DNA of 64,000 nt, taken from Nymphaea colorata. Lineage: Eukaryota; Streptophyta; Magnoliopsida; Nymphaeales; Nymphaeaceae. The position numbers and the translations under genes were made by a program. Below the pieces are notes generated by a model. It searched no databases. It was given only the letters and a program-made list of their open reading frames with translations, and was not told the origin of the DNA. How positions within the stretch are numbered: the stretch's first letter is position 1; every line of letters begins with the position of its first letter. Below, piece after piece: positions 1,107 to 22,501 of this stretch. Where the stretch lies: contig NC_045140.1 of assembly GCF_008831285.2 (NCBI RefSeq), positions 25,686,131-25,750,130 of the forward strand, read 5' to 3'.

Positions 1107-1395
1107 TTTAAAAAATCAGATCAGATTTGGATTTAAGAAATGACATTTGATCATATTCTGATTCAGATATAATAAGTATATGATCGGATTCGGATTCAGA
1201 CCGGATTAAGTTTTAAATAAATACCCTATATCTAATACCCTTGCATTTTGAAGATTCGATCCAATTTGGATGCAGATATCATTGTAAAAGTCAGATTCTG
1301 ACTGAAAAATCAGATTTTTTGAATTCAGATATGACTTTTCTTCATTTATATTTGAATCTGAGTATATGAATATCCGAAAAACAGATATGGTTACT
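1107..1395 (+). repeat. Dispersed repeat family A, copy 1
   Basis: This segment can be aligned by eye with 51235-51530. Shared blocks in the same order are a 'gat(c)agatttggatttaagaa' block, a 'cggattcggattca' block, a 'cccttrcattttgaa' block and an 'attcagatatgacttttt' block followed by 'atttatatttraat'. It has no coding capacity and no clear terminal repeats, so the class is unknown. The divergence between the two copies suggests an old family. Confidence 0.6.
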
Positions 1396-2517
1396 CTGCC
1401 ACTGCTTCCCATCAATTTAAAATAACTTGCAAATGGCAGCGGAAATTAATGAATGAGAGCTTGCAACTCAACTGGGACCCTTAGCCCACTAATGGAGAGG
1501 CACAAGAAGATTATTATTAATGAGAAGTAGCCAAGCAGGTGTAGAGGTTGAACCTCTGCAATCTCTTGATGAAAATGACTACCTTTCCCTCTTCTCCCTT
1601 TGAGTAACACACCACAACCATCATGACAGATAGTGTGCTTCATCATTTATAAGAATATAGATGGTAGCTTCATGCTTACACAAGACTTTTTTTAAAGGAA
1701 AATGTGCCTTCTTCTCATCATAACCCTTACTTAAACATGAATGAAACTTTTAGGGCACTACTTTTCATTTTTAGATATGATTTTTACAGGTTTTAGCTGT
1801 ACCCCCAACACTTTGGGCTGTCATGGATCTTACTCTGGATTGGATGTGCCAAGATTCAGGTTTGGGCTTTACTAGATCTTGCTTGTTGGATTCAAATGAG
1901 TCTGCACTTAAGGTGCGTTTGTTTCACCGTGGATCTCAGATCCGTGGTTATCCATGGATTTAAAGCCGGACGCCCACTCTATCCCATCTTATATAGGATG
2001 TCATATTCATGAAATCCTAAAACTAGTCTTGCATGAATCTACCTCGATCTTCGAAGCAAATTCAGAAGACACTCACTAAGTGCCCATTACTACCAAATGA
2101 TCACTTTAGTTTCACTTTTCTCTTGGGGTGAAAGATGGGGCATGCTCAAGCAAGTTTCTGTTCAGTCTCAGGAAACTACATTACTTAGACTGAGAGCATT
2201 AGTCAATACAAAACCAAATCAGCAGTGCAAAGATGTGGACTTAGGAGCATATAAGTACTTTGGATTCGGATTGATCTAATTCACGTAACCACAGAAGGTG
2301 AAACATTGCATTATTCTAATCCATCTGGTGATTTTCAAGCCTTTGAAACGCTACACAATTTGGGCAATTGGGTATTCTGTCATCCAATCTTATAAATTCA
2401 ACGACAAACAGATTGACTAATTTGTTTCTGCAAAACAAATCAATGTTGAACACATCTATATAGCTGAGAAGTGCAGAAAAATGAACAGGCTCTTTAAGGT
2501 ATTCGTGGCATGTCATG

Positions 2518-2647
<130 letters not shown>

Positions 2648-4007
2648 TAGCGTGATTGACGATATGATTGACCGGAATTTTGCACTTTGTTGATTCTTTT
2701 ACCGGCGAATCCAATTCTCCTTCTTGTCTTTCAAGTCAAAATGAGAGAAGCACTTTTCTTGCTTTGTAAGACAAAGAAGGAATTGGGCCATTGAGTGACC
2801 ATCATTCATCCGGACGAGGAATCGCTTTTATGAGAACTCTTTGGTTGTATTTTTTTTCTAATTAAAGTGGCCTTAGTCTCATACTTAAAAATTTAATATA
2901 GTAAGAAGTGAAAACTCAATTCAAAAAGGAGTTGGCGCAACGGCTTGGGGAAAAGACTGGTAGGTTGTTAGTCTTCATTTTGGGTGTTGGAAAAAAAGGG
3001 TAATCAATACTCAAATAGCAGCGACAACACTAGGTGCACTAAAAGCAGACCCTCTCTTAAAAAGAAAAAAAATTGGATGGAAACTTCAACTCTAATGAAA
3101 TATGACCGTCCCCTATTCACCCGAAAGGAGGGAAAACGCAGAAAAAATGTACAGACAAAGGTCCAAAGTAAGTAATGGAAGAGAAATATTTAGAAATCAA
3201 TTCTCTTTCTAAAGTTTCTTTTTAAAGTTTTAAGGGCGTCATGCTCAAATATTCATAAGGTTTCAAAAACATGGAGAGCTCAATACTCGTTCTAAATTAC
3301 TGTCTCGAAACCATGTCTCATCCCATCTGCCCGTCCTTCACCTCAAAATGAGCGAAATAATCGGCCATTTTCCACCATCGTTCAAAATTTAAATTGGTAA
3401 AGGACAAGAATACCAATCAAAGTCTTCTTTTCTCTGTTCTCAGAGAAGTTGCTACTTTTAATGCACTACCGAGCGCAAAATCGAGTTTGAAGCAGAATCA
3501 TATTTTGACAACAAATGGCAGCAACAATCTTATAATGCAACACTATTATTTTGAAGATCTGGTATATTTATGGCTTTACAGAAGAAACAGTTTCATATAT
3601 ATATATACATACGAAGTTACGTTTCTAGCTTTCTTATTAACGTCCCTTCAAAAATTTTTACAGGAAAATGTGAAGCCAAGTTATCGGAATTGAACTTAAG
3701 AGGGGATCCAACAGAGTTCGAGTCAACCGCGCAAGGTCTACATGAAACGAGCACATACTGAGATGGGCATGACTGCAATCTCTATGTGTGTGCTTATTTA
3801 CAAACACATGAACCAGACAGTTTAACTAAGATACAAAAGCAAACGTATTTACACTACTCAGAATACAACGCGCTAGTAGTAAGCGTCAGAAGATTCTTCA
3901 GTGGTTTCATACTTGAGAGAAGGCTACACGGCAATGAACAGTCCAGGGGTCTCAGTTTCTAAATCTTGCTAGTCACCTGAACAACGACCTGCCCACACAG
4001 CAAGCAG

Positions 4008-6714
4008 CTATGGAGGTCCTGGATGGGTTGGTTGGCCGCGGGGTGGTGCTGGTTGTGGAATGTATGGGATCAGTGGCGTTCCATGCTCGATTGGACCGGA
4101 TTTTACAGTTGCTTTAGAAGTTGGAACAGGATCTATTGGGTGATAATCTTCCATGCTTATCATACTGAGATCCTCCTGAACAAGGAGAAGCGACGTGGAA
4201 GTCATTAGTCATCATGGTAATTTAACCATAAAGTACACTAGTCTGGGCGTGATCAAGATGATCTAGAGTCTAATATCGACTGGAGATTAATAAAAGAGCA
4301 ATATAAACTTCTCAGGTAGCAGACATGCTGAGTTCTGGAGAACTTTTCAGAAAAAACCAAAGTTCTTAATATCAGGATATTTTTCTAGACCGAGACTGCA
4401 ATAAATAACTACACATCTTACCTTCAGCTTTCGGTTCTTTGTTGATAAAATCACTTCTGTAACATAGTTCGAGGATCCTGCTCCTACATTCCATTCAATA
4501 AGTAAGATTAATGGCAAACGTGGTCATACAAAGGTGCAGTAATCTTCAAGAAAAGTCCCCAACCATCCGTTTAGGAGTCAAAAACAGAGAGTAGATCCAA
4601 TTCCTATATTCCACTAAGTAAATTTAACATCAACTCGACATGAAATGGACCACATGAACCAATCCAAGTGCTAAAATGAGAAATTGCATACAAATTGGAT
4701 GAGTCATACCATTCAGGTCATATATTCTGCTTTTCAAGAACAATAGTTTGAACACTGATCCTTCAGAAATGGAAGAGTATAATTAGATGTGCTGCTAGAC
4801 TGTCACAGATAACTTTCTGTTGCATTCAATTCCTGACTTGTGACTCAAAATTGCACCAGTCTGGATGCCTATCTCAAAGTTCCGTAATGGGGTGCAGTGG
4901 AGATGGTAACAGATCCAGGGAGAAATAAAAGGATTCAATAATAGGAGAGGTTGTCGGCAGAAACTAATAGTGGGGCCACGATGACTGTAGGAAAGGGGAG
5001 ATGCAAAATTATAGAATCAAAGGCAACTGCAAATAATTAACAGTGAATTAATTTCACAGGCTTTCCAAGTAATCTAGCTATTATTGGACAGGTAGCATAA
5101 AGGGAAGTGACCGCCAAAGAGAACATGTGCTGTAACACAAAATTATTGGCAGTCTAAAAAATGGATGTTGGCAGCCTTAAATCACAGTCAAATACTCATG
5201 TGTAACACGTGCATTCAGATGAAAGTGTTGGAACATAAATATCACTTACACAAGCATTACACAGTACTAAAAAATTTACATGCCTTAACTTGCTGCAAAA
5301 CGTTTCAATATGTGAAGAAGAAGATGTCAGAAACACTTGAGATTAATGGCATTCCAACAAAACTTCCCCTAATTCATTGAAAGCCTTGGCTGATAAAGAC
5401 CATAGAGATCAGATCTACAAGCATACTAATCATGATTTGGAGGCACATGAAACAGAAAGCCTATGTTGCTTGGATGTTATCCGCATTGGAGAGATTAGTA
5501 TCCATAAAGAATTGGATGAGTGTCGGCTAAATTCTAGCTTAGTAGTTTCACTGATCATTTTCAGTATCTGAAAGAAAAAAATGCTTTCTGAATTGTTTTT
5601 CATGCTCTTCCAAGCACGTTCAGCACAGAAAAAGATATTAACTAAGAATCGTTTTTGCTGCTTAGCATTAAAAAGCATCATTAAAGAGTTGGATTTGTAT
5701 GAATACCAAACGTTGACCAAAGCCAGCACAAAACCTTTAAAATTGATTATAGAATCTTACAAACATTAAGAATTAAACTCAGCTAAACTTTCAAAACTAG
5801 GAGCTGCAATCGTGTGTAATTCTTGTCATCTTTGCTTGTCAAAGCACATTAAACATTTGCTGTACGGAAATATTTCTGACCAATGAAAGTTTCTTTATGC
5901 TCAAAATTATACTGTCATATAAATAATCCAGAAAAGAATAGTTATGCAGCTAGTTGTAATAATGCAGCAATATGCAGTAATAATCAGTACAAGAAGAACT
6001 TTATATGGCCCAAGATGAACATCATAATCACCACTAAACATTAACTGCTTAAAGCTCAATAAGATTACCACCGTTGAAATTTTCCAGATCCATGATGCCT
6101 GAGCATTTCAGAATAAATAATGAACTAAAAAAATGAAAAAAGACTCGTTTTAGCAGAATAAGTTGTCCAATCAAGCATAAAGCACATGCAGCGTGCATTA
6201 TGCAGAATCACTCGTTGACTCTTGTAGTTTAGGATTTTTCAATTTTGGGGGTTAGTGAACCCCAGACCTTTGGGGCGTGTGAAAATGAGCAAGTGCATCG
6301 TTGCAGAGTAGGAAATAAAACGCCTATGCCTGTGAACGATCACAAACACGCGTCTCGAAAGAAATAAATGCCCCCAAAATGACATCATGATCCAAAAGAA
6401 GTGTAATCTGGACCTCAGGTTGGAGAAGAAGACAAAACCATAGATCTAATATAGATCTCAATAACGAGAATGTGGGGAGTTTAATGACAGAAAAAAACAT
6501 CCCAAGGCAACAGAAACCAATTTCGATGCTTCAGTAGCAGAATCAATCTCAGAAAAACAAACAAAATATTCTCATATGTTATTCTACTATCAACAACTAG
6601 GTAATCAAGAAAAGACAAGAGCGATGGGAGCTTCTACTTTTCCACCCGGTTGGCACTACTTTACAAATGTTGAAGCATATTGCAGAAGTGCACTATCCCA
6701 TGCTGAAGCTCTCT

Positions 6715-6746
<32 letters not shown>

Positions 6747-6772
6747 GTACACACACACACACACACATACAG

Positions 6773-6819
<47 letters not shown>

Positions 6820-6919
6820 CTTGGGAACGGTAGCTTCTGTTCGTGTTGGTGAATGCGAGGAACAGAGAAGACGCTCCTAACGCCAAAATCAGGACGCCCC
6901 ACAGACGGGAAGCCCTCAT
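4008..6919 (-). CDS. Secreted peptide precursor, TWS1/CIF-like (candidate tyrosine-sulfated peptide)
   Basis: Three exons on the minus strand, 6919-6820, 4483-4422 and 4175-4008, give 109 residues with phases 1 and 0 and GT-AG borders. Residues 1-28 have a basic start and a hydrophobic core (LWGVLILALGASSLFLAF), as in a signal peptide. The tail carries an acidic tyrosine motif (M-E-D64-Y65), then a Lys/Pro-rich stretch to GPIEH85-GTPLIPYIP, and ends proline-rich. In the CIF/TWS family an Asp-Tyr pair marks the mature peptide start and Tyr is sulfated by TPST. From memory, TWS1 is cut by the subtilase ALE1 after a His followed by Gly; here D64-H85 would be a 22-residue peptide. Splicing is well supported; the TWS1 assignment is inference from motif memory. 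A conserved secreted protein of unknown role is the alternative. Intron 1 begins directly with a microsatellite. Confidence 0.68.
6711..6818. repeat. Compound microsatellite (CT)n(CA)n(GA)n at the intron 1 donor
   Basis: On the plus strand a CT run is followed by a CA run (one CGTA interruption) and a long GA run. On the coding (minus) strand the GA run reads as CT and starts one or two bases after the exon 1 splice donor at 6819-6818, so the 5' end of intron 1 of the peptide-precursor gene is simple repeat. Confidence 0.95.
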
Positions 6920-6978
6920 GGCTCAGAAACAACTATCACCAACAAATGCAGATACCCTAAAAAACCGTAAAACTCATC

Positions 6979-6990
6979 TATGTATATATA
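6979..6990 (-). promoter_or_regulatory. Possible TATA box of the peptide-precursor gene
   Basis: On the minus strand the sequence reads TATATATACA about 65 bases upstream of the start codon at 6919. That spacing would give a 5' leader of roughly 35 bases. TA-rich tracts are common here, so this rests on motif and distance alone. Confidence 0.4.
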
Positions 6991-8098
6991 CCTCTACCAC
7001 CTTCACCGCCTTAAACAGACCTCATGGGCTGGCTCATGGCACAAACAGAAGAGATCGACACTGACCAAAATCCTGCAGCACCCACCTGAGAAGCCTCCTG
7101 ACAAAACAAGAAATGGGAGACAGAACAAGGGAGAAAAGAAGAGACAAGCATATATCATCATGCATTCTTTAGTGTTATGTATTCAAACTTCAAAGAAGAG
7201 AAATTAATGGAGAAGGTGGTGGAACTCCGCAGGAGAGTAATTAATGGAGGGGAAGGGATGGTGGAACTTGAACCGCCACTTTACGGTGCAGGGATTTGAT
7301 AAATTGGCGTAGAGCACGTCTCCTCATGACTGCTCGACAGACCTTGGTTTCTGAGTTCATGGTTCCTTTGCCTCTGAAACAGAATCGCCCAAAATAACCT
7401 CTTGCATTCTTTATGCGTTTATGGGGTTCGAATTGTGGGCAGGCTTTAACTCCCATTAAAGATTTCACATCATTACTCATTTGCACGTCAGTGTTGTGCT
7501 TGGACCAACAGAGCTATTTACAACGAAAACGCAGACCAGGATGGCTGAGCTTTTATTGCATTTCTGGTTTCTGATTCCTTTTGAAGGGAACAGGATACGA
7601 CCGGAGTCATACTTTTACGATGATCTTGTTGACCATACATGCATTTTTGTCAAGAACTAAAGGAAATAAAGAAGAAACACTATGCTGCTCTGTTCACATG
7701 TCAGTGCGGCCTAGGTGTTTAAGGTGCTCCAGGGGAATTAAAACATAGTCAGATAGTTTCCTTTTTTTTTTTAGTTTATGAGGCATGGGAAATCGAAATT
7801 ATTAATCAATTGTCATTTGGCTAGAAACATTAAAAAAATATTTTAAAATAGATAAATAACATAAATATTTTTTAAAATACATTAAAAATGGATTAATTAT
7901 GACACTTGGCACTCTTAAATCGGCCCTGGGATTGAATAGATCATTGTATGCTGTATCCTATAGATTTAGACTCAACCATGGGAGGGTACGAAACCTAGCT
8001 AGAGCATCAGCCACTGTTTGTGACAAACTAAGCATCTACCGGCTATCTTGCATCTGATAACATTATATATATATATATATATATACCGACTTTTGAAT

Positions 8099-12406: not shown

Positions 12407-13846
12407 TTATGTGGGCACCCAAGCGGTAGCAAACACCACATTGTGTCCCTTCCATGTCAACACCAAATCATCATCCTCCTTCTTCAACCCCCATCCAGCA
12501 GCATGCTCCTCCAACAAGCTCTTCATCTCTGCAACTGTGTCGTCACTGAAGCCAATATTTCTAAAAGAAACTCTTTCCATCCGTTGGACCCATCTTGCCT
12601 TGGACTCTAATCTTTCTATTCTCCTCTCTCCTTCAAACGCAATAATGTTCTCAATCTTATGGCAGATATCTGATTCATATAGGATCCTTTGCTTGTTTTC
12701 TCTGGGAAGGAATGTCTCCACTGCATCAAAGGGAATCCACAGGTAATTGAAAGCTGATTTAAGCCTTGCCACCAAATTGGTAGATGTCAGATCAGCATCT
12801 TCGTCAACAAGGGTTACAATGGTGGGTTCCATGCTTCTGATCTCTTTCAGAAGTTCAAATCGAAGAGAACTAGAAGCAGAAGCAGGAGAACTGATATGAA
12901 AGCCAGAGCTCGAATTGGCATCCAGTGTTTCGTCTGGAATATAATGCAACAACATCTGGCAATTGACAACAAGTGCCTCTTCCAACATGGTATCAAGCCT
13001 TTGGTTCATTATTTCTAGCCTTTGATTCTGCAACTCTTTCATCAAGGATGGGATTCCATCAACGGAAATGAGTGTGAACTCCAACCCCACATTCCGCGAC
13101 CGTGCGAAGTTGGTGAGCCTAATGCCAAGCTCTTCGTAGGTCATGTCAATTTCCGGCAAGTGGCTGGAAATTGTACCGGAGAAGACTTGCAGCCGTATAA
13201 AGGGTGCACCTTCCGGCCTGTTTGAGAGGGAGTCGATTAAAGTAGGCCATTGCATGCAATGTGAAAGGCTGAGATCAATAATCCGAACAACTGAGAAGCT
13301 CTCCACAGCTTCGGCTATGGCTGCATTGGCAGCAGAGAACCCAAACCGGTTCCAAGGAGTGAGATCGAGGAATCCAGCAAGCTCGATCACGCTGAGGCGA
13401 CGGGTCGGCGGCTCGGTGCGGCAGGGAAAGTGCTGAAGGAAGCAAGGAGGAGCGGCTCCACCACTTTGAGCAGCACGAGTGATGAGTGCTCGCAGGAATG
13501 CTGAAGTGAGGCGCTGCGTGGAGTCACCATCTGGTGAAGCAATGTTGTTCAAGACCCAGAGGATTTGCTGAGCTGAAGTTGAGTCATGTGTTTCAAGAGC
13601 CGTGGCGCAATGGATCAGCAGCTGCTCCATGCAACTGGATCCACTACTGCTGCTGCCGCCGCTGCCGCCGCCGCCGCCGCCGCCGCCGTCGGCACCATTA
13701 GTGAGGTAGTCGAACGGCAGAGTTAAACGTGGTAGAGGAGATACGAGGATGGTGTTGGCTGATCCGTTGTTAGGCAAAGAAGGTTGAATATAGAAAGGGA
13801 GAGCATTATCGGATGGTGCACGGTGCAGTGCAGTCTCTAGCTCCAT
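12407..13846 (-). CDS. SCL32: GRAS-family transcriptional regulator, SCARECROW-like 32
   Basis: A single uninterrupted frame of 479 codons; SCL32 genes are normally intronless. After a variable N-terminus with a poly-Gly/poly-Ser linker (about residues 53-71), the GRAS domain runs to the end: first leucine-rich region (CMEQLLIHCATALE, WVLNNIASPDGDSTQRL), the VHIID-type motif as VRIIDLSLSHCMQWPTLIDS, the second leucine-rich and PFYRE-like middle (ALVVNCQMLLHYIP), and a SAW region ending AAGWGLKKEDDDLVLTWKGH...FATAWVP. The ending and the NNIASPDGDSTQRLTSAFLRAL block match Arabidopsis SCL32 closely. It should act in the nucleus as a transcriptional co-regulator, by family knowledge. The N-terminus is somewhat longer than the Arabidopsis protein, partly through the GGC repeat. 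The next gene, the peroxidase, is divergent from it. Confidence 0.96.
   Translation of the reverse strand: MELETALHRAPSDNALPFYIQPSLPNNGSANTILVSPLPRLTLPFDYLTNGADGGGGGGGGSGGSSSSGSSCMEQLLIHCATALETHDSTSAQQILWVLNNIASPDGDSTQRLTSAFLRALITRAAQSGGAAPPCFLQHFPCRTEPPTRRLSVIELAGFLDLTPWNRFGFSAANAAIAEAVESFSVVRIIDLSLSHCMQWPTLIDSLSNRPEGAPFIRLQVFSGTISSHLPEIDMTYEELGIRLTNFARSRNVGLEFTLISVDGIPSLMKELQNQRLEIMNQRLDTMLEEALVVNCQMLLHYIPDETLDANSSSGFHISSPASASSSLRFELLKEIRSMEPTIVTLVDEDADLTSTNLVARLKSAFNYLWIPFDAVETFLPRENKQRILYESDICHKIENIIAFEGERRIERLESKARWVQRMERVSFRNIGFSDDTVAEMKSLLEEHAAGWGLKKEDDDLVLTWKGHNVVFATAWVPT
13656..13691. repeat. In-frame CCG trinucleotide repeat coding poly-glycine in SCL32
   Basis: A run of GCCGCC/CCG units on the plus strand encodes eight consecutive glycines followed by a Gly/Ser linker, just before the GRAS domain. 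Such triplet tracts are length-variable within species and change only linker length. Confidence 0.9.
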
Positions 13847-16639
13847 GGATGCTGTAGTGATGCAGCGAGAAACATGAAGAAAAGAAAAGCTAAAAGGAGG
13901 CCTTCCTTTTCTCCTCTTAGTAGAGATGATGACAAATGAAATGACAGGAGAGGAAGATTATAAGACGGAAATGATGTTCAGGATTCTAACATAATATAAG
14001 GGTTAGTGGATGCAGTAGTCATGATTTTGATGAACATAATACTGGGAAGAAATATGAAGGATTTATGCTTCCGTTGGGATAGAGGATCAGGTATTAACAA
14101 TAGCAGTTCTGGCCGGAAAAGGATGAGGGTGACGATGATTTTGAAGAAGATGGCAATGATGGTGGTGGTTAAGACGGCAATATCATAAGGGAATAACGCA
14201 GTTCCCTTCTGATTCTGATAATGGCAACGTCGCAGTGATGGAGGTTGCGGTGACGGCAGGGGCAGCAAGAAAGAGAGGAGGAAGATAACTGTAGGGGAAG
14301 ATCTACAGGTTCCAATTTCTTCAAGTAAGCGCAGGCAACTATATTTAAGTTTTAACAGAAACTAGAAAATTCATAACCAATAGCAACAACAATCACTTGA
14401 TGATGGTGTCGGTAGTTATCAAAGGAAGAAGAACTGCCATCTTTCCAGATGTGGTTACCAATAATCATTCCAGCTGATGATGTTTTTGTTCTTTTGTTAA
14501 AAAGGTGATACAAATCTGAGTTTTCTCTTTTACATCCAAATAATTAGCTAGAAAGCACAAGATGGGAGGTCTTCTTCCTTTGACACGAAAGAACAATAAA
14601 CAGAAAGGCAAGTAAGCAAATGGGCTTTCTCTGAAAGGGAAAAATTAACTCAAGAGATCATCCCTTGCCTGGTCTGCTTCTTGAAAGGGAAGACGCATGA
14701 TGAGAAGATTGCAGCTTCTTTTGTGAAGTGGAGGAGATAGATCTTCCCTGACGTTTCCTTCTAACTGCTGATGAAGAAGAACAGTAGAAGGGAGGACAGG
14801 ATAAAGAGGTGAAGCAGAAGAAGGGAACAGTGTGACGAAGAAGAAGAAAGGCTGTAAGGGGTTGGTTGCCTGGACATTACTTTACTCATTCTTGAGACTT
14901 GTTTATTTGTTATTTTATATATGGTTGGCATGTGTGAAAGCAGGCAAGAGGTCAAAAGCTGCACAACTCAGCAGGAACTCACTTAGCTGACTGAGCCATG
15001 TCCAGACCTAGTAAACCGAGCTCTGGGTTCATGCCGTTGGCTTGATCTCAAATGGATGGGAACGGATCCAAAAAGGTTGAGTAGGAGGCAAATCAAATCA
15101 CATGATCACAAAATCATTTAAAGTAGCAGATAATATCTTGTCTTTTTTATTCCATGGATGATTTGTTTAAGCTAAATGGGGAAAGGGGAAAGCTTGTGGG
15201 GTTGTGTACTTGTGTAACCAACCCCTTGTTTGCATCGACATGGACGCCTTATTTATTCATGGTCATGCTAAGTTCTGGGCCTCTGGCTTGTTAGTGATTC
15301 CATTATGCTGGCCTATCTGTATCATCCATGCATGGCTCCTAAGCGATAATTGATGGTGAGCATGTGCATGTGCATATGTATATACAGTTTCTGAATTATG
15401 TACTTTGAATCAATATGAACATTATATGAACCGATTCATATGTTGGTCGATCAACTTGGTTGGTAGTTTAATTTACTTCTTTCAAAGTTAACTTACAACT
15501 TGTCAATTTGTTTTTTAAGACTAAACTTTATAAATTGCCAATAAACTGATTGAGCATTTCATAATCAGTTAATGTATACAGTTTTTATATTTATACAATC
15601 AACATATTTTATGAATTGTCAAAGGGGGAGTTGGCACACTCGATGTCAGACAAAGAGTCTTAGTCCGATTCTGGTGAGGATCTTGCGCGAAACAGATATC
15701 CAGAGTAGGCCCTACAATGGGGATTTACAATCGACTTGGATCTTAATTACCTATCCAAAAGCATATTTAAAGCCGATGTATTATCAGACTTTAGGTTATA
15801 ATTTTCTCCATGACTATATCGAAGGAATACTATATCTAGACAATGGGCTTTAGAAACGAAAATTTCAATCAAAGCACGATCCCATTAATTTATTTTCGGA
15901 GAGTTTAAACAATGCAGTGTTGATATTTTTCATTTTTCTGACCATTTTTAAAACCACTATCTTTTAATAAAAGATAAGACAGACAGCCGATACGGCAGGA
16001 TTTTCTGTATTATTTTGGAAAAAAAAAAATCACCTACCGATTTTGACCACAATGGACCCTACCTTGATCTTGAATGGACTGCCATACCAACCAAATATAG
16101 CAGCAAATGCTTCGCATCTGCAGTTGATTCATTTTGGCTACAAGAATTATCGAGTCAGAACTTTCCTTTCTTTCTGCAGTCATGCTGCAGGTACATCATA
16201 CACATTGTGTGTGATGACCGGAATTCTTCTTTTGCTCAAGCAACTACTTGCCATTGTCATTCTCCACGAAACACAAGCCGAAAAAGTATACACCACCAAG
16301 TATAAAAAACGTCACGGGAGAAATGCTCATATATATATGTGTGTATACATTCATCACGTTTGTGATGGCCAATCTTGGCGGCTAGAGTGTTAAGTTGTGT
16401 TTTGATTAATCTAATTGACCGCATACAGAGTCCCAAAATATCAAAAACTGTAAGAACAAAAAGTTCATGTTTGAAAAATATGCAGATTAGGTTTTATAGA
16501 CCCATAATGCTAAGGCTGTTGATTTTTAAACTCCTATAAATTTAATCTGCAATTTCTATATGAAATTCTAATTTTTTAGTTCGGACATCTTGCTAGCATA
16601 TTGTACAGAAATCATTTACACCGTTATATCCATAAAAAG

Positions 16640-21047: not shown

Positions 21048-22501
<1,454 letters not shown>

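Follow-up and report, generated by a model that had tools for sequence, protein, structure and literature searches.

A water lily gene that very probably encodes the precursor of the peptide hormone TWISTED SEED1

The Arabidopsis peptide TWISTED SEED1 (TWS1) helps the embryo of the seed to seal its cuticle, or waxy skin. It belongs to the CIF family, whose mature peptides are 21-24 residues long, and is released as DYNFPVDPTPTTKASIKPGPIEH from a precursor of 81 residues (PMC11534595). The N-terminal cut, MKVGLE↓DYNFPV (Glu31/Asp32), is made by SBT1.8, the Asn at P3' being suggested to contribute to the specificity of that site, and the C-terminal cut, PGPIEH↓GTPLNP, is made by ALE1 and SBT1.8 (PMC13082318). 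How widely is this peptide distributed? In a published survey, CIF homologues are reported from 29 of 33 species; Amborella has two, those of ginkgo and spruce fall on the AtTWS1 branch, and published TWS1-branch genes run from ginkgo and spruce through eudicots (PMC11855783). CIFs are also described in three gymnosperms (PMC13074997).

We examined a 64,000-nucleotide stretch of the Nymphaea colorata genome, hereafter the window, and consider it very probable that a gene on its minus strand is a TWS1 precursor gene and belongs to the CIF family's seed branch. The gene is laid out as follows.

6820..6919, minus strand: coding part of exon 1, 100 nt, with the start codon and a hydrophobic, signal-like segment; ends at the donor AAG/GTTCTC
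4484..6819, minus strand: intron 1, 2336 nt, GT-AG
6771-6817 and 6734-6771: CT and GT microsatellites, respectively, at the start of intron 1, a few bases past the exon 1 donor
4422..4483, minus strand: exon 2, 62 nt, encoding a portion of the pro-domain
4176..4421, minus strand: intron 2, 246 nt, GT-AG, with the strong donor AAG/GTAAGA and the acceptor TTGTTCAG
4008..4175, minus strand: coding part of exon 3, 168 nt including the stop; completes the pro-domain and goes on to encode the mature TWS1 peptide and a Pro-rich C-terminal extension
4083..4148, minus strand: putative mature TWS1 peptide (D64-H85, DYHPIDPVPTSKATVKSGPIEH), flanked by the cleavage sites E↓DY and H↓GTPL (coordinates counted in frame from the start of exon 3, where residue 55 is 4175-4173)

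Joining 6919-6820, 4483-4422 and 4175-4008 on the minus strand yields an open reading frame of 109 residues with a single terminal stop, and a TGA lies in frame two codons upstream of the ATG. Exon 2 is needed, since without it exons 1 and 3 are out of frame (100, 62 and 168 nt). An earlier note on this DNA had proposed three exons encoding 109 residues; the exon borders and the residue numbering that it gave hold up, and both introns are GT-AG. The motifs that it had singled out, EDY at residues 63-65 and the junction GPIEH85-GTPL, likewise lie where it had placed them. The computed mass of the 109-residue precursor is 11.82 kDa and its pI is 9.69. It contains E63-D64-Y65 and H85-G86, which bound the 22 residues D64-H85 and leave 24 residues after H85. 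At the N-terminus, the best 13-residue hydrophobic window spans residues 9-21, with a mean Kyte-Doolittle value of 2.47, and this stretch appears signal-like. Exons 1 and 2 are predicted from the reading frame, the splice signals and the shape of the precursor.

The two splice donors differ in strength. Scored with an approximate matrix and ranked among the 2968 GT sites on the minus strand of the window, the second donor falls at the 99.9th percentile and the first at the 89th. The first donor, at 6820, nevertheless has the top score among the listed GT sites in frame with exon 2; alternative first donors deeper in the microsatellite were considered and rejected, none that is in frame with exon 2 outscoring 6820. 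A repeat scan of 3800-7200 returned microsatellites, one chance-like pair of 21 nt and one imperfect palindrome. Variation in the length of the CT/GT microsatellites (6734-6817) could influence splicing of the TWS1 gene. Elsewhere in the window, Pfam matched two of the 20 open reading frames submitted, out of 159 stretches of at least 70 residues: a long open stretch at 12410-13957 (minus strand) whose GRAS domain is nearly complete, covering positions 1-373 of the 374 in the profile (E 2e-91), and the exon of a peroxidase gene at 22097-22498 (plus strand; Pfam peroxidase, E 7e-24).

The evidence that carries the TWS1 assignment lies on exon 3, where the window protein reads ISME↓DYHPIDPVPTSKATVKSGPIEH↓GTPLIP. 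Local alignment with Arabidopsis TWS1 gives a score of 122; the maximum among 2000 shuffles is 52, and the second-best of the 2869 open stretches of at least 15 residues in the window scores 33. When the mature peptide is aligned together with GTPLNP, 20 of 29 columns are identical; for the mature peptide by itself the count is 15 of 23. Both proteins share the block DY...P[VI]DP-x-PT[ST]KA[ST][IV]K-x-GPIEH followed by GTPL, as well as the Glu before DY (the Arabidopsis gene is At5g01075). At the N-terminal site, E at P1 and DY at P1'-P2' are the same as in the published TWS1 site, and GPIEH85↓GTPL is identical to the published C-terminal one. The earlier note had taken D64-H85, cut after His, as the mature peptide, and the published Arabidopsis peptide and cleavage sites match this block and its borders. 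Conservation of the block from DY to EHG, on which that note had staked its reading, holds in the comparison with Arabidopsis.

Three differences accompany this likeness. The mature peptide has 22 residues here against 23 in Arabidopsis TWS1, one being missing after DY; the residue after DY, P3', is His here and Asn there; and Ser replaces Pro before GPIEH. A length of 23 residues and an Asn at P3' are not stated as requirements of the CIF family.

The search was extended to the assembly from which the window comes, 407.8 Mb in 783 contigs; match counts are lower bounds. A 35-mer from Arabidopsis TWS1 gave at least two matches at E up to 10, the best listed being the window locus (E 3.3e-8, 66% identity) and the other C9:22572750 (E 0.17, 48% identity). 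Exon 3 of the window gene gave at least three: itself at E 2e-30, a site on C1 at E 0.99 and, more weakly, the C9 locus at E 9.6. With these two queries, a second clear TWS1 was not found in this genome among the matches listed. The C1 match of the exon 3 query (C1:42573581), which has an internal stop, was dropped as chance, and so was C14:6023668 (E 2). The Pfam search with the window protein returned no family, and the PDB sequence search returned no chain either with this protein or with the 23-residue Arabidopsis peptide. A best match to an unrelated membrane protein family, named beforehand as grounds for abandoning the reading, was thus absent from Pfam and PDB; having returned nothing, these searches speak neither for nor against TWS1.

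Two further CIF-family genes came to light in the same genome. The one on C9, near 22572750 (L006:1450-1761, minus strand), is an unspliced open reading frame of 103 residues with a hydrophobic start; it contains EEDYGYTDPTPISDPGVEPGPIPHPDPL, with the peptide border EEDYGYTDPTPISDPGVEPGPIPH↓PDPL. Like AtCIF3 and AtCIF4, it has a DY start, P-x-P and a PH ending, and, like the window gene, both it and CIF4 have a C-terminal extension. AtCIF3, AtCIF4 and the C9 gene, however, are without the SKA..K block of the window gene, and the C9 gene is unspliced and reads PIPH↓PDPL where the spliced window gene reads PIEH↓GTPL. In a small table of pairwise scores it reaches 69 against the window peptide, 77 against Arabidopsis TWS1, 65 against AtCIF4 and 55 against AtCIF3; its PIPH ending and DYG start suggest CIF3/4, yet these scores put it at least as close to TWS1. 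The other gene, on C2:649368 (L007, about 1378-1527, plus strand), is a CIF1/2-like precursor open reading frame that ends in NDYGSYDPSPTFVRPPFKLIPN with the stop directly after; the pattern PPFKLIPN has a single match in this genome, on C2.

Could the gene be something other than a working TWS1 gene? An arbitrary open reading frame might happen to hold DY and H-G, which by themselves are short and common motifs, and the empty Pfam and PDB results would suit such an accident. This chance reading is refuted by the score of 122, reached by 0 of 2000 shuffles, and by the rank of the locus as the best listed genome match at E 3.3e-8; we give it next to no credence. A precursor from another branch of the CIF family, either CIF1/2 (root Casparian strip) or CIF3/4 (pollen wall), would also show DY and P-x-P, which are common to the family members compared, and CIF4 even ends in PGPVPH↓GSL. 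Yet AtCIF1, 2, 3 and 4 score 18, 19, 26 and 30 against the window protein, within the shuffle range, as do four RGF/GLV peptides (15-21), against 122 for TWS1. The genome moreover has a separate CIF1/2-like gene on C2 and, on C9, a gene with a weaker likeness to CIF4 and TWS1 alike. Placement in another branch is therefore very improbable, and the earlier label "TWS1/CIF-like" may be reduced to TWS1.

More room, though still little, must be left for a TWS1 gene that has become a pseudogene or is not expressed, so that the peptide exon is conserved in a dead gene, for instance through the microsatellite at the first donor. That donor is weak and leads directly into the CT repeat, and the C9 gene, with its score of 77 against Arabidopsis TWS1, could in principle substitute for the window gene. 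Against this stand the intact three-exon frame and the strong second donor, and among the matches listed no further locus has a significant E-value for Arabidopsis TWS1. We regard a dead copy as improbable and retain an intact TWS1 precursor gene as the preferred reading.

How might such a precursor act in the water lily seed? Our scheme is modelled on the Arabidopsis TWS1 pathway as given in PMC11534595, PMC13082318 and PMC13022542, and it is from Arabidopsis that we infer expression, sulfation, cleavage and receptor binding of the window peptide. The embryo would secrete the precursor, and Y65 would be sulfated by a tyrosylprotein sulfotransferase. Subtilases, including ALE1 of the endosperm, would then cut at E63/D64 (an SBT1.8-like enzyme) and at H85/G86 (an ALE1- or SBT1.8-like enzyme) to release the 22-residue peptide D64-H85. 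The peptide would pass back through gaps in the cuticle and bind the receptors GSO1/GSO2 on the embryo, whose sensing would lead to cuticle deposition and sealing of the gaps; a closed cuticle would part the precursor from the protease, and the signal would end. The search for the Sulfotransfer_2 family found none in this genome but was also positive in 0 of 14 control genomes, and so it is uninformative.

N-terminal processing might differ from that in Arabidopsis, because P3' is His here and the Asn at this position is suggested to aid SBT1.8 specificity. We suggest tentatively, and with more doubt than conviction, that with P3' His and the shorter spacing after DY the N-terminal cut could be made by another subtilase or could rely on the sulfotyrosine alone, and that the water lily complement of TWS1, one CIF1/2-like gene and one gene intermediate between CIF3/4 and TWS1 could roughly represent the CIF genes carried by early flowering plants. 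The water lily lineage has a very small endosperm.

What does the locus add? The family is already known across seed plants, so the window gene is one more member: the copy is newly read, and the gene type is ordinary. The string GPIEHGTP was not met in a search of literature text, which shows little, as PMC13082318 prints a cleavage mark within this very site. Knowledge of the pathway is unchanged. The gain is a clearly recognisable TWS1 gene whose three-exon structure can escape small-ORF annotation, a locus that led to two more CIF-family genes in the same genome, and a natural variant, with shorter spacing and P3' His, that could be used to probe the recognition of TWS1 by subtilases and GSO receptors.

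Patchouli offers a second comparison, by size, charge and exon number. PatTWS1 has 112 residues, a mass of 11.88 kDa and a pI of 9.51 (PMC11855783), which the window precursor resembles in size and charge, and the mass and pI of PatTWS1-4 are all very similar to those of the window precursor. Seven of the eight precursors PatTWS1-8 have 112-118 residues and PatTWS5 has 84, compared with 109 here; patchouli CIF/TWS genes have 2-6 exons, and the window gene has three. Patchouli carries eight TWS genes, the water lily genome one clear TWS1 locus among the matches listed. The Arabidopsis TWS1 precursor, at 81 residues, is shorter than that of the water lily, with 31 residues before DY against 63. 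Both continue past the mature peptide into a C-terminal extension of similar length, 27 residues after His54 in Arabidopsis and 24 after H85 in the window protein.
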